From NCBI GenBank assembly GCA_907163375.1, contig CAJQUW010004480.1:1-64000 (forward strand): a stretch of DNA of 64,000 bases. The letters run 5' to 3'. This stretch comes from Prostheceraeus crozeri (Eukaryota > Platyhelminthes > Polycladida > Euryleptidae). The position numbers and the translations under genes are program-made. This document shows, in pieces, positions 10,801-58,679 of this stretch; within the stretch, counting starts at the first letter, position 1; every line of letters begins with the position of its first letter. A model generated the notes under the pieces. The model saw nothing but the letters and a program-made list of their open reading frames with translations. It was not told the DNA's origin and ran no database searches.

Positions 10801-10809
10801 TTTGTCCAT

Positions 10810-35090: not shown

Positions 35091-35098
35091 TGATACAA
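35091..35098 (+). repeat. Target-site duplication, left copy
   Basis: TGATACAA immediately before the left terminal inverted repeat; the identical octamer follows the right terminus at 57853-57860. Confidence 0.9.
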
Positions 35099-35280
35099 GT
35101 AGTAACAAAAGGTCCAGAATAAACACAGCGCGCCCCCCCTCCCCCCCTCCCCCCCTCTGGAACGACAGAGGTTGTGGTCTGTCGTGGTGTGCCGGCCAGG
35201 TGGGTTCGCAAACTGTTCGCTGACTCCCCCCCCCCTCTGCAACGACAGAGTGTGAGACTCGAGTGAGTTGGTCGGACCGC
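35099..35280 (+). repeat. Left terminal inverted repeat and C-tract region
   Basis: The outer 34 bases are identical in both termini. They run into tracts of seven or more C separated by single T (35132-35155), then ACGACAGAG and a second C10 tract near 35227. On the opposite strand the G-runs could form a quadruplex. Confidence 0.75.
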
Positions 35281-35283
35281 CTG

Positions 35284-35371
35284 GTTGACTTGGGCGACCG
35301 TCTAGGTTGACGTGGGCGACCGTCTAGGTTGACGTGGGCGACCGTCTAGGTTGACATGGGCGACCGCCTAG
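35284..35371 (+). repeat. 22-bp minisatellite, four copies
   Basis: The unit GTTGACGTGGGCGACCGTCTAG repeats four times with single-base changes. The inverted counterpart is at about 57580-57670. Confidence 0.8.
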
Positions 35372-35389
35372 GTTGTCTTGGATGGTGAA

Positions 35390-37590
35390 ACGGTGGCCAG
35401 ATTCGGATTCAGCGTCAAATTCTGCATCTGTGATGTGATTTCCAGCTCAATCGGCGAGAAAAACTGTTTCTTCAAAATTTTGGCAGAGTTAAAATTTGGG
35501 ACGTTTTGGTGTGTAGGGCCCAAACGAAGCCTCGGATGAGAAAACGGAGGCCAGATTCGGATTCAGCGTGAAATTCTGCATCTGTATGGTGAATTTGAAA
35601 GCAATCGGAGAGAAAAAATTTTTCGCTGACGCCCCCCCCCCTCTGGACAGCTTGCTTCGATTTTGGCTTCCAGTGGATGGATTTTGTCGTGCGATAGCTC
35701 GTTTGAAAGCTAAGAGTGAGACAAATTCAGTGAAAGAATCGGCTTGTTCCTATCTGTCTTCGTTTAGATGTGAGACGCCATTTAAGATTTTGGGACATTG
35801 GCGAAAAACGACAGAGTTAGAATTTGGGACGTTTTGGGCTCTAGCTTCAAAACGAAGCATCGGATTGGAAAACGGATTTCAGATTTGGAATCAGCGTGAA
35901 ATTCTTTATCTGTATGGTGAGTTTCAAGTCAATCGGAGAGAAAAAATTTCCAACATTTTTCGAAAAAACGACAGAGTTAGAATTTGGGACGTTTTGGTGT
36001 GTAGCGCCCAAACGAAGCATCGGATGAGAAAACGGAGGCCAGATTCGGAATCTACGTGAAATTTTGGGTTAGGAAGGATGTTTCCAGCGAAATCGGAGAG
36101 AAAAAATTTTCACTGACGTCCCCCCCCCTCTGGACAGCTTGCTTCGATTTTGGCTTCCAGTGGACGGATTTTGTCGTGCGATAGCTCGTTTGAAAGCTAA
36201 GAGTGAGACAAATTCACTGAAAGAATCGGCTTGTTCCTATCTGTCTTCGTTTAGATGTGAGACGCCATTTAAGATTTTGGGACATTGGCGAAAAACGACA
36301 GAGTTAGAATTTGGGACGTTTTGGGCTCTAGCTTCAAAACGAAGCATCGGATTGGAAAACGGATTTCAGATTTGGAATCAGCGTGAAATTCTTTATCTGT
36401 ATGGTGAGTTTCAAGTCAATCGGAGAGAAAAAATTTTCAACATTTTTCGAAAAAACGACAGAGTTAGAATTTGGGACGTTTTGGTGTGTAGCGCCCAAAC
36501 GAAGCATCGGATGAGAAAACGGAGGCCAGATTCGGAATCTACGTGAAATTTTGGGTTAGGAAGGATGTTTCCAGCGAAATCGGAGAGAAAAAATTTTCAC
36601 TGACGTCCCCCCCCCTCTGGACAGCTTGCTTCGATTTTGGCTTCCAGTGGACGGATTTTGTCGTGCGATAGCTCGTTTGAAAGCTAAGAGTGAGACAAAT
36701 TCAGTGAAAGAATCGGCTTGTTCCTATCTGTCTTCGTTTAGATGTGAGACGCCATTTAAGATTTTGGGACATTGGCGAAAAACGACAGAGTTAGAATTTG
36801 GGACGTTTTGGGCTCTAGCTTCAAAACGAAGCATCGGATTGGAAAACGGATTTCAGATTTGGAATCAGCGTGAAATTCTTTATCTGTATGGTGAGTTTCA
36901 AGTCAATCGGAGAGAAAAAATTTTCAACATTTTTCGAAAAAACGACAGAGTTAGAATTTGGGACGTTTTGGTGTGTAGCGCCCAAACGAAGCATCGGATG
37001 AGAAAACGGAGGCCAGATTCGGAATCTACGTGAAATTGTGGGTTAGGAAGGATGTTTCCAGCGAAATCGGAGAGAAAAAATTTTCACTGACGTCCCCCCC
37101 CCTCTGGACAGCTTGCTTCGATTTTGGCTTCCAGTGGACGGATTTTGTCGTGCGATAGCTCGTTTGAAAGCTAAGAGTGAGACAAATTCAGTGAAAGAAT
37201 CGGCTTGTTCCTATCTGTCTTCGTTTAGATGTGAGACGCCATTTAAGATTTTGGGACATTGGCGAAAAACGACAGAGTTAGAATTTGGGACGTTTTGGGC
37301 TCTAGCTTCAAAACGAAGCATCGGATTGGAAAACGGATTTCAGATTTGGAATCAGCGTGAAATTCTTTATCTGTATGGTGAGTTTCAAGTCAATCGGAGA
37401 GTTTCAAGTCAATCGGCGAGAAAAATGTTCAACATTTTTCGGAAAAACGACAGAGTTAGAATTTTTGCGATGGCTGCCTACTGTAGAGCCAAAACGAAGC
37501 ATCGGATGGGAAAACGGAGGCCAGATTCGGATTCAGCGTCAAATTCTACATGGAAATGGTGTATTTCCAGCTCAATCGGAGCACTAGAAC
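35390..37590 (+). repeat. 487-bp tandem repeat block, left arm (four units)
   Basis: Each unit starts with a C9-C10 tract followed by CTCTGGACAGCTTGCTTCGA (near 35641, 36127, 36614 and 37101); the spacing is 487 bp. Units have an inner repeat of about 150-170 bp (CGACAGAGTTAGAATTTGGG ... AACGAAGCATCGGAT). Each carries a 135-codon open frame that follows from unit near-identity; its codons show no domain or motif, and the frame changes in the outermost and innermost partial units. I treat it as non-coding. Confidence 0.8.
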
Positions 37591-37629
37591 CGGAGATAGA
37601 CGGGATTTTTAGTGTTTGGATGATGGGTA

Positions 37630-37664
37630 TTACGTCATCAGCTGATCGCCACACACTATATAAG
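37630..37664 (+). promoter_or_regulatory. Candidate promoter: TTACGTCA, CAGCTG and TATATAAG
   Basis: TTACGTCA (37630-37637), a CRE/ATF-like site, overlaps the approach to CAGCTG (37639-37644), and TATATAAG lies at 37657-37664. A start would fall near 37690, directed into the core. The mirror copy lies at 55777-55811 on the minus strand. Prediction by motif only. Confidence 0.45.
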
Positions 37665-38149
37665 CTGGGAACCGACGGAGACTTTTCATTTAGAGGAGAA
37701 CGATTGTCAGAGGTAGGTCGTCTCTCTGAGCTCCGATGATAGCTTCGGACATTCCAAATCCCGAGTTTCTGTAAGAAACCGACTTAGAAAATTTCATTGC
37801 TGATATCAGCTAAGGCGTCAGACTTCGAGGTTCGCCAGGAGATGGCCTTCGTCTCCAGGCCATAAAAGACTCCAAAACTTTAAAGGCTTGTAACTTTGCT
37901 TCTACAAGTCCGTTTGACTTGATTCAAAAAAGGTTCGGTCGCTATTGACCTGCCCTAAGTGATGGACTACTTATAAAATTTCATAAGTAGTGCTAAAAAG
38001 TTGAAAAATTTAAATTCACTATTTTTGGAGGTTTTCTGGGGTTTTCGACCCTGCTGAAGTCAATGAAAGCATTTTTAATGATGTCTGAGCCAGTCTTCTC
38101 ATGCTATAAGCGGCTTTTCACTGAAAGCGAGCAAGACACGGAGAGTTTT

Positions 38150-38295
38150 GCTGTAATATTCCACTGACAGGGTGTTCCTTCGGGACGGCGGACGATGCCG
38201 TAGTGATAAGTGTGGCAAGGGAATGTGTCATATTTGAGACCGTAACCGCTGGGGCAACTCATGTTGGGCATTTGACACAGCTCTCAACGTAGCAC
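38150..38295 (+). ncRNA. Structured module M, copy 1
   Basis: Shared skeleton with 38821-38970 and 39766-39915: GTAATA..TCC, GTTCC-TTCG-GGAC hairpin (UUCG at 38179-38182), CGGC-(7 nt)-GCCG hairpin (38186-38200), CATGTTGGGC near 38260 and CTCAACGTAGC near 38283. The last two can pair (AUGUUG with CAACGU). The reading frames are not conserved among the copies, while the hairpins are. Transcription is not shown. Confidence 0.45.
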
Positions 38296-38388
38296 TTTGA
38301 ACGCCAATCGGTTGAGTCTTAGCTATCTTGTCATGGGTGGCCTCTAAACATCTCCATTGCAAAACGCTGGTGAATCAAGCTCTCTACG

Positions 38389-38475
38389 GCTTGCTATCAA
38401 GCTGATCAAAGCAATAACTTGGGATGTTTCCTCAAGGTTTTCAAGTATGCTGAGTTCAAATCTGCTATCAGATTT
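38389..38475 (+). other. Two perfect hairpins with loop CTAT
   Basis: GCTTG-CTAT-CAAGC at 38389-38402 and AAATCTG-CTAT-CAGATTT at 38458-38475. Further members of the same family are at 38734-38745, 38775-38792, 39244-39269 and 39720-39745. Confidence 0.7.
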
Positions 38476-38519
38476 CAAATTTAGCTAAGTCTAAGGCAGC
38501 TTTGAGGGGTTAGATCCCA

Positions 38520-38639
38520 GCTACTGATCACTACCTTTGACTCGGCGTTCCTGTTACCACTTCGGGGCAGTGACAATGATGTCTTCAGCTGTAAAGAGCG
38601 GGTATCGGGGAAGATCTCTCACTTCCCTAGTGATCAGTA
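38520..38639 (+). other. 12-bp stem enclosing an internal structured region
   Basis: TACTGATCACTA near 38522-38533 pairs exactly with TAGTGATCAGTA near 38628-38639. Between them lie CGTTCC and CACTTCGGGGCAGTG-type sequence. A further C(UUCG)G hairpin GCC-TTCG-GGC follows at 38644-38653. Confidence 0.65.
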
Positions 38640-38733
38640 CAAGGCCTTCGGGCTGTCGACGGGATCGAGTGCCACTCACTACACTCAAATCTATCATTCC
38701 TCACTAAGTGTAAATTACTGACTATACATTTGT

Positions 38734-38792
38734 CCTGCTATCAGGTTGTTTTGACTTGGTATCTAGTTGAATAGTCTCTTGCTATCAAGAGA
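38734..38792 (+). other. Two more hairpins with loop CTAT
   Basis: CCTG-CTAT-CAGG at 38734-38745 and TCTCTTG-CTAT-CAAGAGA at 38775-38792, the latter with a perfect 7-bp stem. Confidence 0.7.
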
Positions 38793-38820
38793 TTCACTTC
38801 TGCTCATAAAGCACATCATC

Positions 38821-38970
38821 GCTGTAATACCTCCTTTGCTCGAGCGTTCCTTCGGGACGGCGGGTACTGCCGTAGAGGGATTGTGTTGCACGGGTTGTTC
38901 GTCGTTTGTTAGACCGAAACCTCTGAGCCGTTGCTCATGTTGGGCGTTCGACTTCATACTCAACGTGACG
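38821..38970 (+). ncRNA. Structured module M, copy 2
   Basis: Same skeleton as copy 1: GCTGTAATACCTCC, CGTTCC-TTCG-GGACG (UUCG at 38851-38854), CGGC-GGGTACT-GCCG (38858-38872), CATGTTGGGC near 38936 and CTCAACGTG (38959-38967). CATGTTG pairs with CAACGTG over seven positions including one G-U. The two overlapping ORFs here (one per strand) are by-products of this module. Confidence 0.45.
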
Positions 38971-39012
38971 TTTTCTCTCGCCAGGTCAGAGTACTTCAGC
39001 CATTCGACAAAG

Positions 39013-39130
39013 GTTAGTCTTTATGATATGGAGTAGAGTGAAATGTAATTCATTAGATGCCCCTTCAATGATTGCTCCCATGATAAACGTTGATGAGACA
39101 AATGAAATGATTCTCATCTTCCTTTTTCAG
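39013..39130 (+). other. Possible 118-bp intron in the core
   Basis: A donor-like AAAG|GTTAGT at 39012/39013 and an acceptor with a strong pyrimidine tract, CTTCCTTTTTCAG, ending at 39130. Length and signals suit a short invertebrate intron. An alternative donor is AG|GTAGGT at 37712/37713. No transcript evidence. Confidence 0.3.
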
Positions 39131-39180
39131 TGATTGAAATCTACTAACACACTACCGTATAATCGTCCACTATGGGACAA

Positions 39181-39270
39181 GACATGATAGAGCCTCCACG
39201 CGCTTTGCCCTGGGCAGTCTTCGGACTGGCGAATACTATCATTAAGTTGAATCTGCTATCAGTCAACTTG
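39181..39270 (+). ncRNA. Three-stem module B, copy 1
   Basis: Outer stem ATGATAG (39184-39190) with CTATCAT (39236-39242) encloses the perfect tetraloop hairpin CAGTC-TTCG-GACTG (39215-39228). Directly after it, AAGTTGA-AT-CTG-CTAT-CAG-TCAACTT (39244-39269) forms a 10-bp stem with a 2-nt bulge and loop CTAT. The loop-side CTATCA could alternatively pair with TGATAG of the outer stem. Confidence 0.5.
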
Positions 39271-39293
39271 AACGTTGCGTCGCGTTAGAGGGG

Positions 39294-39301
39294 TATATAA
39301 A
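39294..39301 (+). promoter_or_regulatory. TATA box before the 88-codon ORF
   Basis: TATATAAA lies 32 bp before the ATG at 39333. The expected start (about 25-31 bp downstream of the box) falls in CATTTCATTTCATTTCAATC, giving a very short leader. The same box is kept in the right arm (54140-54147, minus strand). Confidence 0.5.
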
Positions 39302-39332
39302 CCACTGCCTCTCATTTCATTTCATTTCAATC

Positions 39333-39599
39333 ATGCAGACGCCGAACAGTCAAGTCAGCTCTCCTCGCGGACCGCAGTTAAGGCCGCGAAATTTATTTGA
39401 GGAGTTTGTCAGGCTAGAGGAGCAAGACAGAGTTTTTAATAATCTTGCTCGGATTGGCAATCCGATGACAGCAACTGCTGTCAATCCAACGGAATGGCGC
39501 TACATTCCACTTTTTAGCCATGTGCCAGCTAGTGTGGAAGTCGACAGTGCTACCAAAGAGAGAGTCAAAGACTCTCTCAGCAGAATTGGTAGGGTGTAA
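39333..39599 (+). CDS. 88-residue ORF of the palindromic element, left copy
   Basis: The frame encodes a small soluble protein: a Pro/Ser/Arg-rich N-terminus (NSQVSSPRGPQLRPRN), an acidic-basic helical segment (LFEEFVRLEEQDRVFNNLAR), and a C-terminal TKERVKDSLSRIGRV. It has no signal peptide, membrane segment or known domain, and I do not recognise it. Support for coding: a TATA box at the right place, an ATG as first start, the same 88 residues unchanged in the other arm, and AATAAA signals downstream. It is framed by the two B modules (39181-39270 and 39656-39746). Against: high arm identity would keep any ORF open. The overlapping reverse frame (39500-39979) differs by one residue between the arms and is probably a shadow. 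Confidence 0.4.
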   Translation: MQTPNSQVSSPRGPQLRPRNLFEEFVRLEEQDRVFNNLARIGNPMTATAVNPTEWRYIPLFSHVPASVEVDSATKERVKDSLSRIGRV

Positions 39600-39655
39600 G
39601 ATGACGTTACTCCCGAGAACGAACCATCGGCTCTCTTAAGGGCCACCATGGGGCA

Positions 39656-39746
39656 AGACATGATAGAACCTCCTCGCGGTTTGCCCTGGGCAGTCTTCGG
39701 ACTGGCGAATACTATCATTAAGTTGAATCTGCTATCAGTCAACTTG
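39656..39746 (+). ncRNA. Three-stem module B, copy 2
   Basis: Starts about 55 bp after the ORF stop and repeats copy 1 with few changes: ATGATAG (39660-39666) with CTATCAT (39712-39718), CAGTC-TTCG-GACTG (39691-39704), AAGTTGA..CTG-CTAT-CAG-TCAACTT (39720-39745). It forms a direct repeat around the 88-codon ORF. Confidence 0.5.
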
Positions 39747-39765
39747 AACGTTGCAAATGAAGTTC

Positions 39766-39915
39766 GGTGTAATACTTCCTTTCGACGGGCGTTCCTGTAA
39801 AGGGCGGCGGTGAAACCCGTAGCTATGTATACCGCAAGGGACATTCGGCAATGGTCAATCTTGTTAAACCTCTCTGCGTCATGTTTGCAAGTGATTGCCT
39901 CTGTCTCAACGTAGT
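39766..39915 (+). ncRNA. Structured module M, copy 3 (diverged)
   Basis: Keeps GGTGTAATACTTCC, CGTTCC, GGCGG...CCGTAG, CATGTT and CTCAACGTAG in the same order and spacing as copies 1 and 2, but the UUCG loop is replaced by TGTAAA. The stems remain possible, which favours conservation at RNA or DNA-structure level. Confidence 0.4.
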
Positions 39916-40229
39916 ATGCATTCGCGCCAGGGCGACATTTAGCCAACTGTCGAAGGTTGCCTAAAACTTTCCATTGCATACGTTATGAGAACCATGAGTT
40001 CTACCTGTCTCTATCAATGAGACGAATTGATGAATGGAATGAAATGGGAGGACACTCACGCGCCACACGCAACATAACACACTTCTCTCTTCCGTAGTCT
40101 AACAAGCTCTTTACACATGGATCGCAGTCGATTGCTATCCCTGTATCAGAAGTGTAAGCTATCTTAATTTATTTGACACTATTTCATCTATTATCATCAT
40201 CGTCCATATGAAATGTTTTAAGATTTACA

Positions 40230-43200
40230 AGTTAGACTAAGCGTTCTACTATTTGTAAATGAAAGATATAGTTTCAACAGTTTACAGATTGAAAATAAAG
40301 TTTCAATAGTGTGTGTGTGTGTATGTTAAGAATAAAGTTTTATCTGTTTGTATGTTAGAAATAGAATGAAGTTTCACCAGTTTACAAGTTAAGAATAAAG
40401 TTCTATCTGTTTATATGTTAGAAATAAAATAAAGTTTCAATAGTTTGCAAGTTAAAAATAAAGTTTCAATAGTTTACAAGTTTTAAAATAAAGTTTAAAT
40501 AGTGTGCAAGATAAAAAATAAAGTTTGAACAGTTTACAAGCTGAAATAAAGTTTTAATAGTGTACACGTTGGAAATAAAGTTTTAATAGTTTATGTGCTT
40601 CAAAATAGAGTTATAACAGTTTATATGTTAGAAATAAAATGAAGTTTCATCAGTTTACAAGTTAAGAATAAAGTTCTATCTGTTTGTCTGATAGAAATAA
40701 AACAAAGTTTCAACCGTTTACAAGTTAAAAATAAAGTTTCAACAGTTTACAAGTTAAAATTAAAGCTTCAACAATTACAAGTTAAAAATAAAACTTCAAA
40801 AGTTTACCAGTTAGAAATAAAGTTTCATCAGTTTACAAGTCAAAATAAAGTTTCAACAGATTATAAGTTAAAAGAAAAGTTCCAATAGTATGTGCATTAG
40901 AAATAACGTTTCAGCTGTTTGTATGTTAGAAATAAGATAAAGTTTCAATTGTGTGTACGTTAGAAATAAAGTTCTATCTGTTTCTATGATAGAAATAAAA
41001 CAAAGTTTCAACCGTTAACAAGTTAAAAATAAAGTTTCAAGAGTTTACAAGTTAAAACTAATGTTTCAATAGTGTATGTATGTTAAGAATAAAGTTAGAA
41101 CAGTTTACAAGCTGAAATAAAGTTTTAATAGTGTACACGTTGGAAATAAAGTTTTAATAGTTTATGTGCTTCAAAATAGAGTTATAACAGTTTATATGTT
41201 AGAAATAAAGTTTCAACAGTCTACAAGTTAAAAATAAAATTATAACTGTTTCAAGAGTTTACAAGTTAGAAATTAAGTTTCAATGGTGTATGCGTTAGAA
41301 ATAAAGTTTTAGCTGTTTGTATATCAAAATAAAGTTTCAAGAGTTTACAAGTTAGAAATAAAATGAAGGTTCACCAGTTTACAAGTTAAGAATGAAGTTC
41401 TATCTGTTTGTATGTTAGAAATAAAACAAAGTTTCAACCGTTAACAAGTTAAAAATAAAGTTTTAAGAGTTACAAGTTAAAACTAATGTTTCAATAGTGT
41501 GTGTATGTTAAGAATAAAGTTTTATCTGTTTGTATGTTAGAAATAGAATGAAGTTTCACCAGTTTACAAGTTAAGAATAAAGTTCTATCTGTTTATATGT
41601 TAGAAATAAAATAAAGTTTCAATAGTTTGCAAGTTAAAAATAAAGTTTCAATAGTTTACAAGTTTTAAAATAAAGTTTAAATAGTGTGCAAGATAAAAAA
41701 TAAAGTTTGAACAGTTTACAAGCTGAAATAAAGTTTTAATAGTGTACACGTTGGAAATAAAGTTTTAATAGTTTATGTGCTTCAAAATAGAGTTATAACA
41801 GTTTATATGTTAGAAATAAAATGAAGTTTCATCAGTTTACAAGTTAAGAATAAAGTTCTATCTGTTTGTATGTTAGAAATAAAACAAAGTTTCAACCGTT
41901 TACAAGTTAAAATAAAGTTTCAACAGTTTACAAGTTAAAATTAAAGCTTCAACAATTACAAGTTAAAAATAAAACTTCAAAAGTTTACCAGTTAGAAATA
42001 AAGTTTCATCAGTTTACAAGTCAAAATAAAGTTTCAACAGATTATAAGTTAAAAGAAAAGTTCCAATAGTATGTGCATTAGAAATAACGTTTCAGCTGTT
42101 TGTATGTTAGAAATAAGATAAAGTTTCAATTGTGTGTACGTTAGAAATAAAGTTCTATCTGTTTCTATGATAGAAATAAAACAAAGTTTCAACCGTTAAC
42201 AAGTTAAAAATAAAGTTTTAAGAGTTTACAAGTTAAAACTAATGTTTCAATAGTGTATGTATGTTAAGAATAAAGTTAGAACAGTTTACAAGCTGAAATA
42301 AAGTTTTAATAGTGTACACGTTGGAAATAAAGTTTTAATAGTTTATGTGCTTCAAAATAGAGTTATAACAGTTTATATGTTAGAAATAAAATGAAGTTTC
42401 ATCAGTTTACAAGTTAAGAATAAAGTTCTATCTGTTTGTATGTTAGAAATAAAACAAAGTTTCAACCGTTAACAAGTTAAAAATAAAGTTTTAAGAGTTT
42501 ACAAGTTAAACTAATGTTTCAATAGTGTGTGTATGTTAAGAATAAAGTTTTATCTGTTTGTATGTTAGAAATAGAATGAAGTTTCACCAGTTTACAAGTT
42601 ACGAATAAAGTTCTATCTCTTTAAGTTTATAAGTTAAGAATAAAGTTCTATCTGTTTATATGTTAGAAATAGAATGAAGTTTCACCAGTTTACAAGTTAA
42701 GAATAAAGTTCTATCTGTTTATATGTTAGAAATAAAATAAAGTTTCAACAGTCTACAAGTTAAAAATAAAATTATAACTGTTTCAAGAGTTTACAAGTTA
42801 GAAATTAAGTTTCAATGGTGTATGCGTTAGAAATAAAGTTTTAGCTGTTTGTATATCAAAATAAAGTTTCAAGAGTTTACAAGTTAGAAATAAAATGAAG
42901 GTTCACCAGTTTACAAGTTAAGAATGAAGTTCTATCTGTTTGTATGTTAGAAATAAAACAAAGTTTCAACCGTTAACAAGTTAAAAATAAAGTTTTAAGA
43001 GTTACAAGTTAAAACTAATGTTTCAATAGTGTGTGTATGTTAAGAATAAAGTTTTATCTGTTTGTATGTTAGAAATAGAATGAAGTTTCACCAGTTTACA
43101 AGTTAAGAATAAAGTTCTATCTGTTTATATGTTAGAAATAAAATAAAGTTTCAATAGTTTGCAAGTTAAAAATAAAGTTTCAATAGTTTACAAGTTTTAA

Positions 43201-45705
43201 AATAAAGTTTAAATAGTGTGCAAGATAAAAAATAAAGTTTGAACAGTTTACAAGCTGAAATAAAGTTTTAATAGTGTACACGTTGGAAATAAAGTTTTAA
43301 TAGTTTATGTGCTTCAAAATAGAGTTATAACAGTTTATATGTTAGAAATAAAATGAAGTTTCATCAGTTTACAAGTTAAGAATAAAGTTCTATCTGTTTG
43401 TATGATAGAAATAAAACAAAGTTTCAACCGTTTACAAGTTAAAATAAAGTTTCATCAGTTTACAAGTTAAGAATAAAGTTCTATCTGTTTGTATGATAGA
43501 AATAAAACAAAGTTTCAACCGTTTACAAGTTAAAATAAAGTTTCACCAGTGTACAAGTTAGAAATAAAGTTTCAATAGTGTATATGTTAGAAATAAAGTT
43601 TTAGCTGTTTGTATATGAAAAACTAAGTTTCAAGAGTTTACAAGTTAAAAAATAAAGTTTCAATGGTGTATACGTTAGAAATAAAGTTTTAGCTGTTTGT
43701 ATATCAAAATAAAGTTTCAAGAGTTTACAAGTTAGAAATAAAGTTTCAACAGTGTGCACGTTAAGAATAAAGTTTCAATAGTGTGTATGTTAAGAATAAA
43801 GTTCTATCTGTTTATATGTTAGAAATAAAAATGAAGGTTCATCAGTTTACAAGTTAAGAATAAAGTTTTATCTGTTTGTATGTTAGAAATAAAATAAAGT
43901 TTCGACCGTTAACAAGTTAAAAATAAAGTTTCAGATTAAAATAAAGTTTCAATAGTGTGTATGATGGAAATAAAGTTTAAGCGCTTTGTGCGTCAGAAAT
44001 AAAGTTTCAACCGTTTACAAGTTAAAAATAAAGTTTCAACAGTGTGTACGTTAAGAATAAAGTTCTATCTGTTTATATGTTAGAAATAAAAATAAAGGTT
44101 CACCAGTTTACAGGTTAAGAATAAAGTTTTATCTGCTTGTATGTCAGAAATGAAATAAAGTTTCACCAGTTTAAAAGTTAAGAATAAAGTTTCAATAGTG
44201 TGTATGTTAGAAATAAAGTTTCAATAGTGTGTATGTTAAGAATAAAGTTCTATCTGTTTATATGTTAGAAATAAAAATGAAGGTTCACCAGTTTGCAAGT
44301 TAAGAATAAAGTTTTATCTGCTTGCATGTCAGAAATGAAATAAAGTTTCACCAGTTTAAAAGTTAAGAATAAAGTTTCACCAGTTTAAAAGTTAAGAATA
44401 AAGTTTCAATAGTGTGTATGTTAAGAATAAAGTTCTATCTGTTTATATGTTAGAAATAAAATGAAGTTTCAATAGTGTGTATGTTAAGAATAAAGTTCTA
44501 TCTGTTTATATGTTAGAAATAAAATGAAGGTTCACCAGTTTACAAGTTAAGAATAAATTTTATCTGCTTGTATGTTAGAAATAAAATAAAGTTTCACCGA
44601 TTTACAAGTTAAAAAATAAAGTTTCAATAGTTAACACGTTAAAAATAAAGTTTCAATAGTGTGTATGTTAAGAATAAAGTTCTATCTGTTTGTATATTAG
44701 AAAGAAAATGAAGGTTCATCAGTTTACAAGTTAATAATAAAGTTTTATCTGTTTGTATGTTAGAAATAAAACATAGTTTCAACCGTTGACAAGTTAAAAA
44801 TAAAGTTTCAATAGTTTGCGAGTTAAAACTAATGTTTCAATAGTGCGTATGTTAAGAATAAAGTTTTATCTGTTTGTATGTTAGAAATAAAATGAAGCTT
44901 CGCCAGTTTACAAGTTTAGAATAAAGTTTTATCAGCTTGTATGTTAGAAATAAAATGAAGTTTCACCAGTTTACAAATTAAAAATAAAGTTTCAATAGTG
45001 TGTACGTTAGAAATAAAGTTTCAACCGTTTACAAGTTAAAATAAAGTTTCAACAGTGTCTACGTTAGAAATAAAGTTTTATCTGTTTGTAAAGTTCGATC
45101 GTAGGATTTACTAGTTTGCAAGTTAGACTCAGCATTCTACTAGTTGTAAATGAAAATAACGTTTCAACAGTTTACAGATTAAAATAAAGTTTCAATAGTG
45201 TGTATGATGGAAATAAAGTTTAAGCGCTTTGTGCGTTAGAAATAAAGTTTCAGCCGTTGACAAGTTAAAAATAAAGTTTCAACAGTGTGTACGTTAGAAA
45301 TAAAGTTTCAACAGTTTACAAGTTGAAAAATAAAGTTTCAACAGTGTGTACGTTAGAAATAAATGAAAGTAAGAACTTCATCGTATGAGTATTCAAAGCA
45401 TGTTTTGTAAATCAAATGTGTGTAGTCCTGACATGATAGAATCGCGTTAGAAATAAAGTTTCAGCCGTTTACAAGTTAAAGATAAAGTTTCAACAGTGTG
45501 TACGTTAGAAATAAAGTTTTAGCTGTTTATATGTTAGAAACAAAATAAAGTTTCACAGTTTACAAGTTGAAAAATAAAGTTTCAACAGTGTGTACGTTAG
45601 AAATAAATGAAAGTAAGAACTTCATCGTATGAGTATTCAAAACATGTTTTGTAAATCAAATGTGTGTAGTCCTGACATGATAGAATCAAATGAACTTGAC
45701 AAACG
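40230..45705 (+). repeat. AATAAA-rich minisatellite, left arm
   Basis: Units of about 29 bp built on AGAAATAAAGTTTCAACAGT plus TTACAAGTT, with variants (GTGTGTACG for TTTACAAG, TCTATCTGTTTGTATG, and others). Higher-order copies exist: sequence from 40307 recurs near 41491 and again, in part, near 42515 and 43030. Nearly every unit contains AATAAA on the plus strand, which is the direction of transcription from the left core. A different patch near 45085-45170 repeats the words found at the array start (GTTAGACT.AGC.TTCTACTA). Confidence 0.85.
45366..45705 (+). repeat. Inner segment with GACATGATAGAATC
   Basis: A 77-bp segment (AAGTAAGAACTTCATCGTAT ... CTGACATGATAGAATC) occurs at about 45366-45442 and again at about 45607-45688. 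GACATGATAGA also starts both B modules. It is complementary in part (TGATAG) to the CTATCA of the hairpin loops. Confidence 0.65.
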
Positions 45706-45716
45706 CGTTTGTCAAG
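45695..45716. repeat. Centre of the palindrome
   Basis: CTTGACAAACG|CGTTTGTCAAG is a perfect 22-bp palindrome with no loop. Outside it the arms show a small mismatch (ATGAA on the left only) and then pair again. Confidence 0.85.
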
Positions 45717-48700: not shown

Positions 48701-51700
48701 TTATTCTTAACTTGTAAACTGATGAACCTTCATTTTCTTTCTAATATACAAACAGATAGAACTTTATTCTTAACATACACACTATTGAAACTTTATTTTT
48801 AACGTGTTAACTATTGAAACTTTATTTTTTAACTTGTAAATCGGTGAAACTTTATTTTATTTCTAACATACAAGCAGATAAAATTTATTCTTAACTTGTA
48901 AACTGGTGAACCTTCATTTTATTTCTAACATATAAACAGATAGAACTTTATTCTTAACATACACACTATTGAAACTTCATTTTATTTCTAACATATAAAC
49001 AGATAGAACTTTATTCTTAACATACACACTATTGAAACTTTATTCTTAACTTTTAAACTGGTGAAACTTTATTCTTAACTTTTAAACTGGTGAAACTTTA
49101 TTTCATTTCTGACATGCAAGCAGATAAAACTTTATTCTTAACTTGTAAACTGATGAACCTTCATTTTTATTTCTAACATATAAACAGATAGAACTTTATT
49201 CTTAACATACACACTATTGAAACTTTATTTCTAACATACACACTATTGAAACTTTATTCTTAACTTTTAAACTGGTGAAACTTTATTTCATTTCTGACAT
49301 ACAAGCAGATAAAACTTTATTCTTAACCTGTAAACTGGTGAACCTTTATTTTTATTTCTAACATATAAACAGATAGAACTTTATTCTTAACGTACACACT
49401 GTTGAAACTTTATTTTTAACTTGTAAACGGTTGAAACTTTATTTCTGACGCACAAAGCGCTTAAACTTTATTTCCATCATACACACTATTGAAACTTTAT
49501 TTTAATCTGAAACTTTATTTTTAACTTGTTAACGGTCGAAACTTTATTTTATTTCTAACATACAAACAGATAAAACTTTATTCTTAACTTGTAAACTGAT
49601 GAACCTTCATTTTTATTTCTAACATATAAACAGATAGAACTTTATTCTTAACATACACACTATTGAAACTTTATTCTTAACGTGCACACTGTTGAAACTT
49701 TATTTCTAACTTGTAAACTCTTGAAACTTTATTTTGATATACAAACAGCTAAAACTTTATTTCTAACGTATACACCATTGAAACTTTATTTTTTAACTTG
49801 TAAACTCTTGAAACTTAGTTTTTCATATACAAACAGCTAAAACTTTATTTCTAACATATACACTATTGAAACTTTATTTCTAACTTGTACACTGGTGAAA
49901 CTTTATTTTAACTTGTAAACGGTTGAAACTTTGTTTTATTTCTATCATACAAACAGATAGAACTTTATTCTTAACTTGTAAACTGATGAAACTTTATTTT
50001 AACTTGTAAACGGTTGAAACTTTGTTTTATTTCTATCATACAAACAGATAGAACTTTATTCTTAACTTGTAAACTGATGAAACTTCATTTTATTTCTAAC
50101 ATATAAACTGTTATAACTCTATTTTGAAGCACATAAACTATTAAAACTTTATTTCCAACGTGTACACTATTAAAACTTTATTTCAGCTTGTAAACTGTTC
50201 AAACTTTATTTTTTATCTTGCACACTATTTAAACTTTATTTTAAAACTTGTAAACTATTGAAACTTTATTTTTAACTTGCAAACTATTGAAACTTTATTT
50301 TATTTCTAACATATAAACAGATAGAACTTTATTCTTAACTTGTAAACTGGTGAAACTTCATTCTATTTCTAACATACAAACAGATAAAACTTTATTCTTA
50401 ACATACACACACTATTGAAACATTAGTTTTAACTTGTAACTCTTAAAACTTTATTTTTAACTTGTTAACGGTTGAAACTTTGTTTTATTTCTAACATACA
50501 AACAGATAGAACTTCATTCTTAACTTGTAAACTGGTGAACCTTCATTTTATTTCTAACTTGTAAACTCTTGAAACTTTATTTTGATATACAAACAGCTAA
50601 AACTTTATTTCTAACGCATACACCATTGAAACTTAATTTCTAACTTGTAAACTCTTGAAACAGTTATAATTTTATTTTTAACTTGTAGACTGTTGAAACT
50701 TTATTTTATTTCTAACATATAAACAGATAGAACTTTATTCTTAACTTGTAAACTGGTGAAACTTCATTCTATTTCTAACATATAAACAGATAGAACTTTA
50801 TTCTTAACTTATAAACTTAAAGAGATAGAACTTTATTCGTAACTTGTAAACTGGTGAAACTTCATTCTATTTCTAACATACAAACAGATAAAACTTTATT
50901 CTTAACATACACACACTATTGAAACATTAGTTTAACTTGTAAACTCTTAAAACTTTATTTTTAACTTGTTAACGGTTGAAACTTTGTTTTATTTCTAACA
51001 TACAAACAGATAGAACTTTATTCTTAACTTGTAAACTGATGAAACTTCATTTTATTTCTAACATATAAACTGTTATAACTCTATTTTGAAGCACATAAAC
51101 TATTAAAACTTTATTTCCAACGTGTACACTATTAAAACTTTATTTCAGCTTGTAAACTGTTCTAACTTTATTCTTAACATACATACACTATTGAAACATT
51201 AGTTTTAACTTGTAAACTCTTGAAACTTTATTTTTAACTTGTTAACGGTTGAAACTTTGTTTTATTTCTATCATAGAAACAGATAGAACTTTATTTCTAA
51301 CGTACACACAATTGAAACTTTATCTTATTTCTAACATACAAACAGCTGAAACGTTATTTCTAATGCACATACTATTGGAACTTTTCTTTTAACTTATAAT
51401 CTGTTGAAACTTTATTTTGACTTGTAAACTGATGAAACTTTATTTCTAACTGGTAAACTTTTGAAGTTTTATTTTTAACTTGTAATTGTTGAAGCTTTAA
51501 TTTTAACTTGTAAACTGTTGAAACTTTATTTTAACTTGTAAACGGTTGAAACTTTGTTTTATTTCTATCATACAAACAGATAGAACTTTATTCTTAACTT
51601 GTAAACTGATGAAACTTCATTTTATTTCTAACATATAAACTGTTATAACTCTATTTTGAAGCACATAAACTATTAAAACTTTATTTCCAACGTGTACACT

Positions 51701-53200
51701 ATTAAAACTTTATTTCAGCTTGTAAACTGTTCAAACTTTATTTTTTATCTTGCACACTATTTAAACTTTATTTTAAAACTTGTAAACTATTGAAACTTTA
51801 TTTTTAACTTGCAAACTATTGAAACTTTATTTTATTTCTAACATATAAACAGATAGAACTTTATTCTTAACTTGTAAACTGGTGAAACTTCATTCTATTT
51901 CTAACATACAAACAGATAAAACTTTATTCTTAACATACACACACTATTGAAACATTAGTTTTAACTTGTAACTCTTAAAACTTTATTTTTAACTTGTTAA
52001 CGGTTGAAACTTTGTTTTATTTCTAACATACAAACAGATAGAACTTCATTCTTAACTTGTAAACTGGTGAACCTTCATTTTATTTCTAACTTGTAAACTC
52101 TTGAAACTTTATTTTGATATACAAACAGCTAAAACTTTATTTCTAACGCATACACCATTGAAACTTAATTTCTAACTTGTAAACTCTTGAAACAGTTATA
52201 ATTTTATTTTTAACTTGTAGACTGTTGAAACTTTATTTCTAACATATAAACTGTTATAACTCTATTTTGAAGCACATAAACTATTAAAACTTTATTTCCA
52301 ACGTGTACACTATTAAAACTTTATTTCAGCTTGTAAACTGTTCTAACTTTATTCTTAACATACATACACTATTGAAACATTAGTTTTAACTTGTAAACTC
52401 TTGAAACTTTATTTTTAACTTGTTAACGGTTGAAACTTTGTTTTATTTCTATCATAGAAACAGATAGAACTTTATTTCTAACGTACACACAATTGAAACT
52501 TTATCTTATTTCTAACATACAAACAGCTGAAACGTTATTTCTAATGCACATACTATTGGAACTTTTCTTTTAACTTATAATCTGTTGAAACTTTATTTTG
52601 ACTTGTAAACTGATGAAACTTTATTTCTAACTGGTAAACTTTTGAAGTTTTATTTTTAACTTGTAATTGTTGAAGCTTTAATTTTAACTTGTAAACTGTT
52701 GAAACTTTATTTTTAACTTGTAAACGGTTGAAACTTTGTTTTATTTCTATCAGACAAACAGATAGAACTTTATTCTTAACTTGTAAACTGATGAAACTTC
52801 ATTTTATTTCTAACATATAAACTGTTATAACTCTATTTTGAAGCACATAAACTATTAAAACTTTATTTCCAACGTGTACACTATTAAAACTTTATTTCAG
52901 CTTGTAAACTGTTCAAACTTTATTTTTTATCTTGCACACTATTTAAACTTTATTTTAAAACTTGTAAACTATTGAAACTTTATTTTTAACTTGCAAACTA
53001 TTGAAACTTTATTTTATTTCTAACATATAAACAGATAGAACTTTATTCTTAACTTGTAAACTGGTGAAACTTCATTCTATTTCTAACATACAAACAGATA
53101 AAACTTTATTCTTAACATACACACACACACACTATTGAAACTTTATTTTCAATCTGTAAACTGTTGAAACTATATCTTTCATTTACAAATAGTAGAACGC
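45706..53200 (-). repeat. AATAAA-rich minisatellite, right arm, with 2,034-bp duplication
   Basis: Inverted counterpart of the left array. AATAAA now reads on the minus strand (TTTATT on plus), again toward the centre. Three landmark pairs are offset by exactly 2,034 bp (46687/48721, 47411/49445, 48651/50685), showing a tandem duplication of about 46,677-48,710 that the left arm does not have. Confidence 0.85.
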
Positions 53201-53460
53201 TTAGTCTAACTTGTAAATCTTAAAACATTTCATATGGACGATGATGATAATAGATGAAATAGTGTCAAATAAATTAAGATAGCTTACACTTCTGATACAG
53301 GGATAGCAATCGACTGCGATCCATGTGTAAAGAGCTTGTTAGACTACGGAAGAGAGAAGTGTGTTATGTTGCGTGTGGCGCGTGAGTGTCCTCCCATTTC
53401 ATTCCATTCATCAATTCGTCTCATTGATAGAGACAGGTAGAACTCATGGTTCTCATAACG

Positions 53461-55850
53461 TATGCAATGGAAAGTTTTAGGCAACCTTCGACAGTTGGCT
53501 AAATGTCGCCCTGGCGCGAATGCATACTACGTTGAGACAGAGGCAATCACTTGCAAACATGACGCAGAGAGGTTTAACAAGATTGACCATTGCCGAATGT
53601 CCCCTGCGGTATACATAGCTACGGGTTTCACCGCCGCCCTTTACAGGAACGCCCGTCGAAAGGAAGTATTACACCGAACTTCATTTGCAACGTTCAAGTT
53701 GACTGATAGCAGATTCAACTTAATGATAGTATTCGCCAGTCCGAAGACTGCCCAGGGCAAACCGCGAGGAGGTTCTATCATGTCTTGCCCCATGGTGGCC
53801 CTTAAGAGAGCCGATGGTTCGTTCTCGGGAGTAACGTCATCTTACACCCTACCAATTCTGCTGAGAGAGTCTTTGACTCTCTCTTTGGTAGCACTGTCGA
53901 CTTCCACACTAGCTGGCACATGGCTAAAAAGTGGAATGTAGCGCCATTCCGTTGGATTGACAGCAGTTGCTGTCATCGGATTGCCAATCCGAGCAAGATT
54001 ATTAAAAACTCTGTCTTGCTCCTCTAGCCTGACAAACTCCTCAAATAAATTTCGCGGCCTTAACTGCGGTCCGCGAGGAGAGCTGACTTGACTGTTCGGC
54101 GTCTGCATGATTGAAATGAAATGAAATGAGAGGCAGTGGTTTATATACCCCTCTAACGCGACGCAACGTTCAAGTTGACTGATAGCAGATTCAACTTAAT
54201 GATAGTATTCGCCAGTCCGAAGACTGCCCAGGGCAAAGCGCGTGGAGGCTCTATCATGTCTTGTCCCATAGTGGACGATTATACGGTAGTGTGTTAGTAG
54301 ATTTCAATCACTGAAAAAGGAAGATGAGAATCATTTCATTTGTCTCATCAACGTTTATCATGGGAGCAATCATTGAAGGGGCATCTAATGAATTACATTT
54401 CACTCTACTCCATATCATAAAGACTAACCTTTGTCGAATGGCTGAAGTACTCTGACCTGGCGAGAGAAAACGTCACGTTGAGTATGAAGTCGAACGCCCA
54501 ACATGAGCAACGGCTCAGAGGTTTCGGTCTAACAAACGACGAACAACCCGTGCAACACAATCCCTCTACGGCAGTACCCGCCGTCCCGAAGGAACGCTCG
54601 AGCAAAGGAGGTATTACAGCGATGATGTGCTTTATGAGCAGAAGTGAATCTCTTGATAGCAAGAGACTATTCAACTAGATACCAAGTCAAAACAACCTGA
54701 TAGCAGGACAAATGTATAGTCAGTAATTTACACTTAGTGAGGAATGATAGATTTGAGTGTAGTGAGTGGCACTCGATCCCGTCGACAGCCCGAAGGCCTT
54801 GTACTGATCACTAGGGAAGTGAGAGATCTTCCCCGATACCCGCTCTTTACAGCTGAAGACATCATTGTCACTGTCCCGAAGTGGTAACAGGAACGCCGAG
54901 TCAAAGGTAGTGATCAGTAGCTGGGATCTAACCCCTCAAAGCTGCCTTAGACTTAGCTAAATTTGAAATCTGATAGCAGATTTGAACTCAGCATACTTGA
55001 AAACCTTGAGGAAACATCCCAAGTTATTGCTTTGATCAGCTTGATAGCAAGCCGTAGAGAGCTTGATTCACCAGCGTTTTGCAATGGAGATGTTTAGAGG
55101 CCACCCATGACAAGATAGCTAAGACTCAACCGATTGGCGTTCAAAGTGCTACGTTGAGAGCTGTGTCAAATGCCCAACATGAGTTGCCCCAGCGGTTACG
55201 GTCTCAAATATGACACATTCCCTTGCCACACTTATCACTACGGCATCGTCCGCCGTCCCGAAGGAACACCCTGTCAGTGGAATATTACAGCAAAACTCTC
55301 CGTGTCTTGCTCGCTTTCAGTGAAAAGCCGCTTATAGCATGAGAAGACTGGCTCAGACATCATTAAAAATGCTTTCATTGACTTCAGCAGGGTCGAAAAC
55401 CCCAGAAAACCTCCAAAAATAGTGAATTTAAATTTTTCAACTTTTTAGCACTACTTATGAAATTTTATAAGTAGTCCATCACTTAGGGCAGGTCAATAGC
55501 GACCGAACCTTTTTTGAATCAAGTCAAACGGACTTGTAGAAGCAAAGTTACAAGCCTTTAAAGTTTTGGAGTCTTTTATGGCCTGGAGACGAAGGCCATC
55601 TCCTGGCGAACCTCGAAGTCTGACGTCTTAGCTGATATCAGCAATGAAATTTTCTAAGTCGGTTTCTTACAGAAACTCGGGATTTGGAATGTCCGAAGCT
55701 ATCATCGGAGCTCAGAGAGACGACCTACCTCTGACAATCGTTCTCCTCTAAATGAAAAGTCTCCGTCGGTTCCCAGCTTATATAGTGTGTGGCGATCAGC
55801 TGATGACGTAATATCCATCATCCAAACACTAAAAATCCCGTCTATCTCCG
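53461..55850 (-). other. Single-copy core of the right arm
   Basis: Mirror of 37591-39980 with no net length change. It contains the mirror M modules (53526-53675, 54471-54620, 55146-55291), B modules (53695-53785, 54171-54260), hairpins and promoters on the minus strand. Base changes seen include TTGCGGTATA/CTGCGGTATA near 53605. Confidence 0.8.
53842..54108 (-). CDS. 88-residue ORF of the palindromic element, right copy
   Basis: The same 88 residues as the left copy without any change, read toward the centre from a TATA box at 54140-54147. See the left copy for composition. Being identical in both arms is expected from recent arm homogenisation, so this alone does not prove selection on the protein. 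Confidence 0.4.
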   Translation of the reverse strand: MQTPNSQVSSPRGPQLRPRNLFEEFVRLEEQDRVFNNLARIGNPMTATAVNPTEWRYIPLFSHVPASVEVDSATKERVKDSLSRIGRV

Positions 55851-57570
55851 GTTCTAGTGCTCCGATTGAGCTGGAAATACACCATTTCCATGTAGAATTT
55901 GACGCTGAATCCGAATCTGGCCTCCGTTTTCCCATCCGATGCTTCGTTTTGGCTCTACAGTAGGCAGCCATCGCAAAAATTCTAACTCTGTCGTTTTTCC
56001 GAAAAATGTTGAACATTTTTCTCGCCGATTGACTTGAAACTCTCCGATTGACTTGAAACTCACCATACAGATTAAGAATTTGACGCTGATTCCAAATCTG
56101 AAATCCGTTTTCTCATCCGATGCTTCGTTTTGAAGCTAGAGCCCAAAACGTCCCAAATTCTAACTCTGTCGTTTTTTGCCAATGTCCCAAAATCTTAAAT
56201 GGCGTCTCACATCTAAACGAAGACAGATAGGAACAAGCCGATTCTTTCACTGAATTTGTCTCACTCTTAGCTTTCAAACGAGCTATCGCACGACAAAATC
56301 CGTCCACTGGAAGCCAAAATCGAAGCAAGCTGTCCAGAGGGGGGGGGACGTCAGTGAAAATTTTTTCTCTCCGATTTCGCTGGAAACATCCGTCCTAACC
56401 CAAAATTTCACGTAGATTCCGAATCTGGCCTCCGTTTTCTCATCCGATGCTTCGTTTGGGCGCTACACACCAACACGTCCCAAATTCTAACTCTGTCGTT
56501 TTTTCGAAAAATGTTGAAAATTTTTTCTCTCCGATTGACTTGAAACTCACCATACAGATAAAGAATTTCACGCTGATTCCAAATCTGAAATCCGTTTTCC
56601 AATCCGATGCTTCGTTTTGAAGCTAGAGCCCAAAACGTCCCAAATTCTAACTCTGTCGTTTTTCACCAATGTCCCAAAATCTTAAATGGTGTCTCACATC
56701 TAAACGAAGACAGATAGGAACAAGCCGATTCTTTCATTGAATTTGTCTCACTCTTAGCTTTCAAACGAGCTATCGCACGACAAAATCCATCCACTGGAAG
56801 CCAAAATCGAAGCAAGCTGTCCAGAGGGGGGGGGACGTCAGTGAAAATTTTTTCTCTCCGATTTCGCTGGAAACATCCGTCCTAACCCAAAATTTCACGT
56901 AGATTCCGAATCTGGCCTCCGTTTTCTCATCCGATGCTTCGTTTGGGCGCTACACACCAAAACGTCCCAAATTCTAACTCTGCCAAAATTTTTTCGAAAA
57001 ATGTTGGAAATTTTTTCTCTCCGATTGACTTGAAACTCACCATACAGATAAAGAATTTCACGCTGATTCCAAATCTGAAATCCGTTTTCCAATCCGATGC
57101 TTCGTTTTGAAGCTAGAGCCCAAAACGTCCCAAATTCTAACTCTGTCGTTTTTCACCAATGTCCCAAAATCTTAAATGGTGTCTCACATCTAAACGAAGA
57201 CAGATAGGAACAAGCCGATTCTTTCATTGAATTTGTCTCACTCTTAGCTTTCAAACGAGCTATCGCACGACAAAATCCATCCACTGGAAGCCAAAATCGA
57301 AGCAAGCTGTCCAGAGGGGGGGGGGACGTCAGTGAAAAATTTTTCTCTCCGATTTCGCTGGAAACATCCGTCCTAACCCAAAATTTCACGTAGATTCCGA
57401 ATCTGGCCTCCGTTTTCTCATCCGATGCTTCGTTTGGGCGCTACACACCAACACGTCCCAAATTCTAACTCTGCCAAAATTTTGAAGAAACAGTTTTTCT
57501 CGCCGATTGAGCTGGAAATCACATCACAGATGCAGAATTTGACGCTGAATCCGAATCTGGCCACCGTTTC
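55851..57570 (-). repeat. 487-bp tandem repeat block, right arm (three units)
   Basis: C/G-tract junctions (GTCCAGAGGGGGGG) at about 56332, 56819 and 57306. One unit fewer than the left arm. Several units carry small changes (for example TTTTTTCGAAA replaced by CCAAAATTTTTTCG near 56985) that break or shift the open frame seen on the left. Confidence 0.8.
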
Positions 57571-57579
57571 ACCATCCAA

Positions 57580-57852
57580 GACAACCTAGGCGGTCGCCCA
57601 TGTCAACCTAGACGGTCGCCCACGTCAACCTAGACGGTCGCCCACGTCAACCTAGACGGTCGCCCAAGTCAACCAGGCGGTCCGACCAACTCACTCGAGT
57701 CTCACACTCTGTCGTTGCAGAGGGGGGGGGAGTCAGCGAACAGTTTGCGAACCCACCTGGCCGGCACACCACGACAGACCACAACCTCTGTCGTTCCAGA
57801 GGGGGGGGAGGGGGGGGGCGCGCTGTGTTTATTCTGGACCTTTTGTTACTAC
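57580..57852 (-). repeat. Right 22-bp minisatellite, G-tract and terminal inverted repeat
   Basis: Inverted copies of the 22-bp unit (57580-57670), G-tracts at 57721-57730 and 57801-57818 with quadruplex-like spacing, and the terminal sequence ending ...GGACCTTTTGTTACTAC at 57852. Confidence 0.8.
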
Positions 57853-57860
57853 TGATACAA
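57853..57860 (+). repeat. Target-site duplication, right copy
   Basis: TGATACAA directly after the right terminus, identical to 35091-35098. Confidence 0.9.
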
Positions 57861-57879
57861 AATGACTATTTTCAAACTA

Positions 57880-58679
57880 GTGTTAGTCCTGTAAGTTCAG
57901 GGCATCATATTATGTACATAGATGATGCTAGGACGTTATTTCACCCAATACCATTGTTTAAGCAAGCAAATAATTTTCAATTGCTATCTCAATTCTACCC
58001 ATCGAGTCGTATCAACTCCAAACTACATTTAATTAATGATTGGGCAATTGAGCACAAAATGAAATTGAATCATACCAAAACGCAAGAAATGAGAATCTCC
58101 TTTAATAAATCGGAGCCGGAGTGGGAACCTTTATCTGTAAATGGCGACCAAATAACTGCAGCCTCTAGTATAAAGCTCTTTGGTGTGACAATAAGCAACA
58201 ACCTAACTTGGAACAAACATGTTGAAGATCTCGTGAAGAAAGCTAACAAGCGAATCTATTTCCTTGTTCAGATGAAAAGAGCAAGATTTTCTCAAATTGA
58301 CATTCATTTCTACTGTGCGTCGATCCAAAGCTTGCTAGAGTATGCTGCCCCTGTTTGGCATTACGGACTTTCCAAGAAGTTTTCAGACCTGTTGGAAGGA
58401 GTTCAAAAACGGGCTTTGAAAATGATATGTGGAATACGCTACCAAGACCATAGCTATAATTATGAAAATATACTTGAAGTCTGTAAGCTGCAAAAACTGT
58501 GTGACAGACGAGAGCTATTGTGCCGGAAAGCAATGCTGAATCTCTCCAGTGACCTGAAGCAGAAGATTCCTCAGAAGAGCGAATATTCGAGGAGATTACG
58601 ACGGACCACAACGACAATACGGACAAGAACTGAGCGATATCGTAGATCTTTTTTACCTTCTGCAGTGAAATTTTTATGA
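57880..58679 (+). pseudogene. CR1/L2-like LINE RT C-terminal part
   Basis: The open frame runs from inside the palindromic element (57825), but LINE similarity starts only after the insertion site. Seen: MYIDDARTLF near 57912 (catalytic YxDD with the usual T replaced by A-R), LINDWAIEHKMKLNHTKTQ, LFGVTISNNLTWNKHVEDL, YCASIQSLLEYAAPVW, LLEGVQKRALKMICG and a terminal RRSFLPSAVKFL. This is the palm end, thumb and C-terminal tail of a CR1/L2-type RT. No stop interrupts the 260 codons after the YIDD, so it is a fairly young, 5'-truncated copy. No matching upstream LINE sequence was found left of 35,091, so the palindromic element does not clearly split it. Confidence 0.7.

Follow-up and report, generated by a model that had tools for sequence, protein, structure and literature searches.

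Vertebrate Mavericks, or Polintons, are flanked by 6-bp duplications and carry end motifs, the commonest of which is (AGT)2//(ACT)2 (PMC8097293). The subject of this work is a 22,756-bp palindrome at positions 35098–57853 of a 64,000-nucleotide stretch of DNA from the polyclad flatworm Prostheceraeus crozeri (contig CAJQUW010004480.1, positions 1 to 64,000; the whole stretch is called the window below). Like the Mavericks so described, it has a 6-bp target-site duplication (TSD), 5'-(AGT)2//(ACT)2-3' ends, giant size and intronless genes (PMC8097293). It differs from them in being palindromic to its centre, in its very high copy number and in its proteins of 83–88 amino acids (aa) without a Pfam match, and the four frames scanned held no recognisable gene for PolB, integrase, ATPase or capsid. 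We consider it probable that the palindrome is a giant non-autonomous Maverick satellite whose mini-genes are ended by a stem-loop and a hepatitis delta virus (HDV)-like ribozyme.

Replication-dependent histone genes are intronless, short, TATA-led and clustered, and have a 6-bp GGYYYU/ARRRCC stem followed by an ACC tail. The mini-genes of the palindrome share these traits, whereas Pfam gave no family, not even the histones, for their 88- and 83-aa proteins, and their 3' ends would be made by a ribozyme. A short transcript with a histone hairpin close to its 3' end is also known from Tm1-HH, inverted-repeat DNA elements of root-knot nematodes (PMC3169594). Unlike the present element, Tm1-HH is about 1.2 kb long, its TSD is mostly 9 bp (8–10), a Mutator (Phantom) transposase occurs in its family and no clear open reading frame (ORF) is present in the transcript with the hairpin. 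The authors of that work remark that conservation is highest 3' of the hairpin, while the upstream part varies; the word ribozyme is not used in their paper (PMC3169594). Our reading suggests that an HDV-like ribozyme may lie behind the Tm1-HH hairpins as well, which would explain that conservation. The HDV-like ribozymes of R2, L1Tc and other retroelements have the same nested double pseudoknot of P1–P4 and are cut at their 5' edge, but their cut releases a retroelement's 5' end (PMC8256844), whereas that of the palindrome would make an mRNA 3' end in a DNA element. Foldback elements such as Tetris are likewise built of long, composite inverted repeats that contain tandem arrays; the palindrome differs from them in its TSD (6 versus 8–10 bp), in being far larger and in having arms that meet at the centre (PMC4079207).

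Short genes with a histone-type stem-loop and a candidate ribozyme

The mini-gene of the left arm, on the plus strand, consists of a TATATAA box (39294–39300), which is kept in the diverged lineage L080, and an 88-aa ORF (39333–39599). Starting 29 nt past the ORF stop is a histone-type stem-loop, GGCTCT-CTTA-AGGGCC (GGCTCTCTTAAGGGCC; 39629–39644), with the 5-nt tail ACCAT (39645–39649). The tail leads directly into a predicted HDV-like ribozyme (39650–39718) whose predicted cut, at 39649|39650, falls exactly 5 nt past the stem-loop. On the minus strand, the right arm mirrors TATA box (54141–54147), ORF (53842–54108, encoding an identical protein) and stem-loop (53797–53812) exactly, and has a ribozyme of the same sequence at 53723–53791. 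A further TATATAA, promoter-like by consensus match only, is found at 37657–37663 (+), with its mirror at 55778–55784. An earlier reading of this DNA, made from the letters alone (the sequence-only reading), had noted internal promoters and an ORF, in agreement with these TATA boxes and the 88-aa ORF; the ribozyme, the histone stem-loop and the mini-gene layout were absent from it.

The stem-loop follows the histone rule of a 6-bp GGYYYU/ARRRCC stem, a 4-nt loop and an ACC 3' flank, as given by the general consensus and the RF00032 alignment. In a 341-nt query it scored 18.1 bits (E 0.022) against RF00032, below the gathering threshold of 34, and a strict pattern for it found no match in 20 Mb of random sequence. 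All the features of an HDV-like ribozyme are present: P1 (39650-56/39681-87) with a G at the cut, P1.1, P2 (39661-66/39712-17), P3 (39668-70/39678-80), P4 (39691-95/39700-04), a CC in L3, and J4/2 with a catalytic C, which would be 39706. In the 341-nt query, RF02682 gave 26.5 bits (E 0.0045, gathering 44) and RF00094 gave 27.5 bits (E 0.037, gathering 50), and the whole window has no match at the Rfam gathering level. A descriptor of the ribozyme matched the window at four places, all in the element and two of them without mismatch, while 10 Mb of random sequence gave no perfect and two one-mismatch matches. An upstream copy (39174–39242, +), which belongs to a 112-nt repeat of the second copy, is a one-mismatch match and is not listed by Rfam at E values up to 2.

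The distance between stem-loop and predicted cut can be compared with that of histone transcripts, as cleavage of histone pre-mRNA, too, takes place about 5 nt beyond the stem. 3'hExo trims two nucleotides, and the histone tail is kept at three nucleotides (PMC10388802). We propose that each arm is a mini-gene vector in which the TATA promoter would drive a short intronless ORF, and that the transcript would pass through the stem-loop into the ribozyme, which would cut itself 5 nt past the stem-loop. The resulting mRNA would be non-polyadenylated, with a histone-like 3' end made without the U7 small nuclear ribonucleoprotein or CPSF73; SLBP would link its expression to S phase, and a ribozyme of its own in each unit would let several mini-genes stand in tandem.

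Such tandem mini-genes were found when the assembly (2.05 Gb in 14,165 contigs, the window being the start of its contig) was searched; in the similarity searches, only the best-scoring of the first-look candidates were scored. At one locus (L081), units of 476 bp repeat the order stem-loop, ribozyme, TATA, 88-aa ORF, stem-loop, ribozyme. At another (L082), units of 519 bp have a different promoter and an unrelated, acidic 83-aa ORF (MEATSADN...) for whose protein no relative was found in Pfam or PDB, and they close with the same CCGAGAACGAACCATC, stem-loop, ACCAT and ribozyme. A cassette variant at L056 has the tail ACCTA and a different upstream sequence, and is perhaps a third gene type.

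Because ribozymes flank the units of both tandem loci at both ends, they could instead excise the 476- and 519-nt units to yield small circular RNAs of retrozyme- or viroid-like kind, the palindrome being only their DNA carrier; small circular RNAs with ribozymes in animals do derive from retrozyme-like elements (PMC7229834). We regard this as rather unlikely, since a separate TATA box lies between ribozyme and ORF in every unit, the window's upstream ribozyme copy is a degenerate one, and a stem-loop exactly 5 nt before the cut is needless for a circle.

In the diverged lineage, whose ORF has 78% nucleotide identity, stem-loop and tail are identical at 21/21 positions and the ribozyme at 68/69. 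The 247 nt downstream are likewise 98% identical between the lineages, so the conservation of the cassette may reflect gene conversion or homogenisation. Besides that of the window, five ribozyme variants were seen, with changes in J1/2 (two bases), in L3 (U to A), in the P4 loop (two bases) or from C to U in P1. The last keeps a G.U pair, and none of the five breaks a pair; they were, however, collected through the stem-loop pattern, so that any copy whose stem is broken would have been missed. The loops seen in the stem-pattern search were CTTA, CATA and GATA.

That the two motifs are chance look-alikes, or non-functional relics spread by copying, is in our judgement quite unlikely. The alternative draws on the possible gene conversion and on Rfam scores that, for ribozyme and stem-loop alike, are all below gathering; the other points that weigh against our reading are the degeneracy of the upstream ribozyme copy (a P1 mismatch and C.C in P3) and the loop CTTA, which may not be that of the host's own histone genes. 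On the other hand, two independent motifs stand in exact register, and this register recurs after two genes unrelated to each other as well as in a lineage whose dS is about 0.46. The variants seen keep their pairs, and random sequence contained no strict match to the ribozyme (10 Mb) or to the stem-loop (20 Mb), although both descriptors were written after the sequence had been seen.

The 88-aa protein has two relatives, P0001 (97% identical) and P0002 (71%), and a profile search gave no others. For the P0002 lineage, the genome yielded 6620 first-look candidates, and the best 150, all that were scored, are 94–100% identical to P0002; 144 of these 150 have no internal stop. Between the 88-aa lineages, the nonsynonymous and synonymous divergences are dN 0.20 and dS 0.46 (Nei-Gojobori, one pair), and on this ratio of 0.45 the protein is probably constrained. 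It matches no Pfam family, its hits in PDB are weak (best E 0.13), and its AlphaFold model is poor, with a mean pLDDT (predicted local distance difference test) of 51.7. An antisense ORF of 159 aa (39500–39979) was considered as a gene and rejected as a shadow of the cassette, because P0003 and P0004, which are 97–98% identical to it over their length, end near the stem-loop; they have the same cassette with other upstream sequence.

Element ends and relationship to Mavericks

The termini of the element are exact inverted copies, 5'-AGTAGTAAC...GTTACTACT-3', as the sequence-only reading had stated, and its outermost 8 bases, in the window as in other copies, are AGTAGTAA at the start and TTACTACT at the end. 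On either side is the TSD GATACA (35092–35097 and 57854–57859). In all nine copies for which both ends were found, the window's included, the identity of the flanks stops at exactly 6 bp, the other duplications being GACGTC, TAGGTC, ATCCGA, GTTGAT, GATGAT, CATGGC, CCGGTA and GACGGA. We therefore place the element at 35098–57853. The octamer TGATACAA, which the sequence-only reading had taken for an 8-bp TSD, does occur at both ends (35091 and 57853), but on each side it consists of the 6-bp duplication, the element's own terminal base and a further base that agrees by chance.

Both Maverick marks are thus present: the 6-bp TSD (9/9) and the (AGT)2//(ACT)2 ends, the latter in three terminal subfamilies. 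All three begin with AGTAGTAA, the two beyond that of the window being AGTAGTAAGCAAGTGACAAAC and AGTAGTAAGGAAGTGACAAAC. In the 20 ends fetched from the genome, the base just outside GTAGTAA is always A. The AGTAGTAA end was found next to a C-run in 12 of 20 genome pieces. Since these ends were sought with the motif AGTAGTAA itself, the search favours it; the second terminal subfamily was first seen before that search. The terminus, earlier said to match no recognised family, thus has the end motif of Mavericks.

In the scan of the four frames against Pfam, no family exceeded the cut-off, and none of PolB, integrase, ATPase or capsid was recognised, for which reason the element is read as a non-autonomous satellite of Mavericks and not as a Maverick proper. 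The earlier statement that it encodes no known transposase is in line with this, as none was recognised in these frames.

A Maverick is itself resident in the window, as a fragment at 1–10816 that is truncated by the start of the contig and apparently inserted in a Gypsy integrase. The fragment contains a PolB (5379–6062; Pfam DNA_pol_B_2, E 3.7e-6) and frames that, by eye, are ATPase-like and capsid-like, while the open stretch up to 10817 reads, also by eye, as a Gypsy integrase (FGIRKTLKQVSDTYYWPNMDFDLRL). On the minus strand, the fragment starts from the 10816 side with AGTAGTAATGGACAAAAGACC, and the palindrome starts with AGTAGTAACAAAAGGTCC. Their first 8 bases are common, the fragment ending in TTACTACT at 10816. 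Elsewhere in the genome, PolB had 18,708 first-look candidates, and in many of the best 88, which were scored, the frame stays open for about 1,200 aa. Next to one PolB, a 3.6-kb piece (L079) has frames like the capsid-like and ATPase-like ones of the window and the start of a PolB frame, judged by eye and position.

Three observations detract from the kinship with Mavericks. The end motifs cited are those of vertebrates and may not be those of the host; the match with the resident Maverick is of 8 bases, from a one-ended fragment; and in 8 of the 20 pieces no AGTAGTAA end was found, so that other or missing ends exist or the ends lie outside the piece.

A foldback of Mutator (or hAT or P) type, with an 8-bp duplication and moved by a cut-and-paste transposase, has some points in its favour. 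The arms are composite and have tandem repeats; the prevailing view assigns most foldbacks to Mutator, with TSDs of 8–10 bp (PMC4079207, PMC3169594), and the Tm1-HH elements are foldback-like and have a histone hairpin (PMC3169594). The TSD of exactly 6 bp in all nine pairs, however, led us to reject an 8-bp TSD and with it the foldback, hAT, P and Mutator assignments, and the ends are the Maverick motif; we hold this explanation to be very unlikely. Of the earlier description as a foldback insertion of unplaced family, what stands is a mobile insertion that is large and palindromic and in which no transposase was recognised, while the foldback with an 8-bp TSD gives way to 6 bp and Maverick ends.

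Under the satellite reading, the integrase of a Maverick would insert the element in trans and its protein-primed replication, from both identical ends, would copy it; snap-back or panhandle copying may have created the palindrome or may renew it. Self-cleavage, SLBP binding and transposition are what we infer from the sequence. The wider proposal strikes us as evenly balanced: a Maverick-borne palindromic satellite, forming a virus–satellite pair with its helper, would use a new route to mRNA 3' ends, in which a stem-loop with a ribozyme 5 nt on punctuates tandem mini-genes and couples them to S phase. To our knowledge, histone-type mRNA ends made by ribozymes exist only as laboratory constructs, and in the literature covered, which was partial, we found no paper joining a histone stem-loop and an HDV-like ribozyme in a mobile element. 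If correct, the proposal would provide natural ribozyme-made histone-type mRNA ends and a class of satellites for Mavericks, which are transposons that are also viruses, and the palindromic form would bear on symmetric genomes from protein-primed linear DNA.

Architecture of the palindrome and its genomic family

The left arm (35098–45689, +) and the right arm (45718–57853, inverted, with an extra block of 2034 bp) meet at a centre of 28 nt (45690–45717) that is itself mostly palindromic and is spanned by CTTGACAAACGCGTTTGTCAAG. There are 34 differences in 8359 aligned bases between 36459–44817 and 48624–56982, and 9 in 3066 bases between the inner arms (42624–45689 and 45718–48783). A whole-arm alignment gave 41 differences, its substitutions lying mostly within the outer repeat region, with a repeat unit of about 488 bp extra on the left and the 2034-bp block extra on the right. 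The inverted repeat running to the very centre, as first described, is therefore near-perfect up to these 28 nt, with arms that are unequal in their tandem blocks.

The left end (first 310 bases) had 2600 first-look candidates in the genome; the best 40, which were scored, are all 95–100% identical over nearly the full query, two of them being the window's own ends. The sequence-only reading had looked to other copies of the termini, with 8-bp duplications, in support of a mobile insertion. Copies with the same termini are indeed found in the assembly, with duplications of 6 bp, and with so many first-look candidates the termini are far from lacking another copy. An exact search with the 34 nt that join stem-loop and tail to the start of the ribozyme found 7,347 copies (3800 + 3547), against none for the reversed control. 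On these counts, the family to which the element belongs is very large in this genome.

The cassette (39280–39760) had 794 first-look candidates, of which the best 40 were scored and are all 100% identical as printed. Twenty-seven of these 40 lie in 13 contigs with both orientations, and the other 13 are listed singly. In all 13 two-orientation contigs, the plus cassette precedes the minus cassette, a palindrome-like order, with start-to-start spacings from about 9.5 to 23.6 kb, so that total element lengths vary. In several further copies, the outer arms were read on both sides. An assembly artefact, with one arm folded back into a chimera, is scarcely credible: the arms are near-identical and fold-back read artefacts exist (PMC12870357), but the flanks are different and share a short duplication, tens of sites and two tandem blocks distinguish the arms, the order is convergent in 13/13 two-orientation contigs with differing spacings, and 6-bp duplications occur in 9/9 pairs.

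At L067:6097 (C8968:648096), a neighbouring end, AGTAGTAATCCCCTGACAAAATCAAGG, begins a relative that looks asymmetric, with a left arm seemingly without the ORF region; not every copy, then, is a full palindrome. Outside this genome, no copies were found in IMG/VR viral contigs (searched with three DNA patterns and with one protein alignment), in bacterial genomes (one DNA pattern) or in phage records (one distant blastn).

Repeats occupy much of each arm. An outer 487-bp tandem array has 3.9 copies at 35484–37401 (+) and 3.0 copies in its right-arm counterpart (56040–57483), and 10 copies of ACGACAGAG lie in the left arm, against one in about 41 kb of flanks (both strands). The inner part is an AT-rich minisatellite (40200–45689, +) in which AATAAA occurs 141 times on the sense strand of the arm and never on the other; in the right arm (45718–53200) the counts are 202 and 0. 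These signals might stop read-through toward the centre, and, because the bias follows from the repeated unit, it lends weak support to a polyadenylation block.

Three diverged copies of a structured repeat of about 150 nt, A (38160–38310, +), B (38832–38985) and C (39776–39930), share the pattern GCGTTCCT..CTCAACGTAG..CGCCA. Their alignment, of three sequences only, has changes on both sides at 13 of 40 predicted pairs. Rfam gave one match for the region of A and B (38100–39170), not meaningful at E 2.8, and none of its own for C. The motif TGCTATCA has 12 copies in the window, all inside the element and on the sense strands of the arms (38392, 38463, 38736, 38780, 39254 and 39730, and their mirrors). 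At least two flanking bases can pair in 4 of the 6 left-arm copies, a number that no 8-mer attained in 1000 random sequences, and the copies may form a recurrent hairpin.

Other features of the window

The right flank of the element (57861–58679) resembles a fragment of a reverse transcriptase of the type lacking long terminal repeats (non-LTR), with a YIDD motif seen by eye, and the frame 57612–58679 matches Pfam ALKBH8_N (E 1.9e-6). When the flanks are joined, the resulting frame translates as SNDVIQNDYFQ and has a stop a few codons before this, which suggests that the insertion split this frame. Further to the left lie two pogo/Tigger-like frames (23750–25255, +, and 30644–31780, −; DDE_1 at E 3e-36 for the latter, the one frame scanned), a reverse transcriptase (27389–29280, +; RVT_1 at E 6e-14 for 27389–28549) of non-LTR type by eye, and, outside the element, a 35-bp tandem array of 7.4 copies (22242–22500). 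The host carries Maverick, Gypsy, pogo/Tigger-like and non-LTR elements, an animal-like set.

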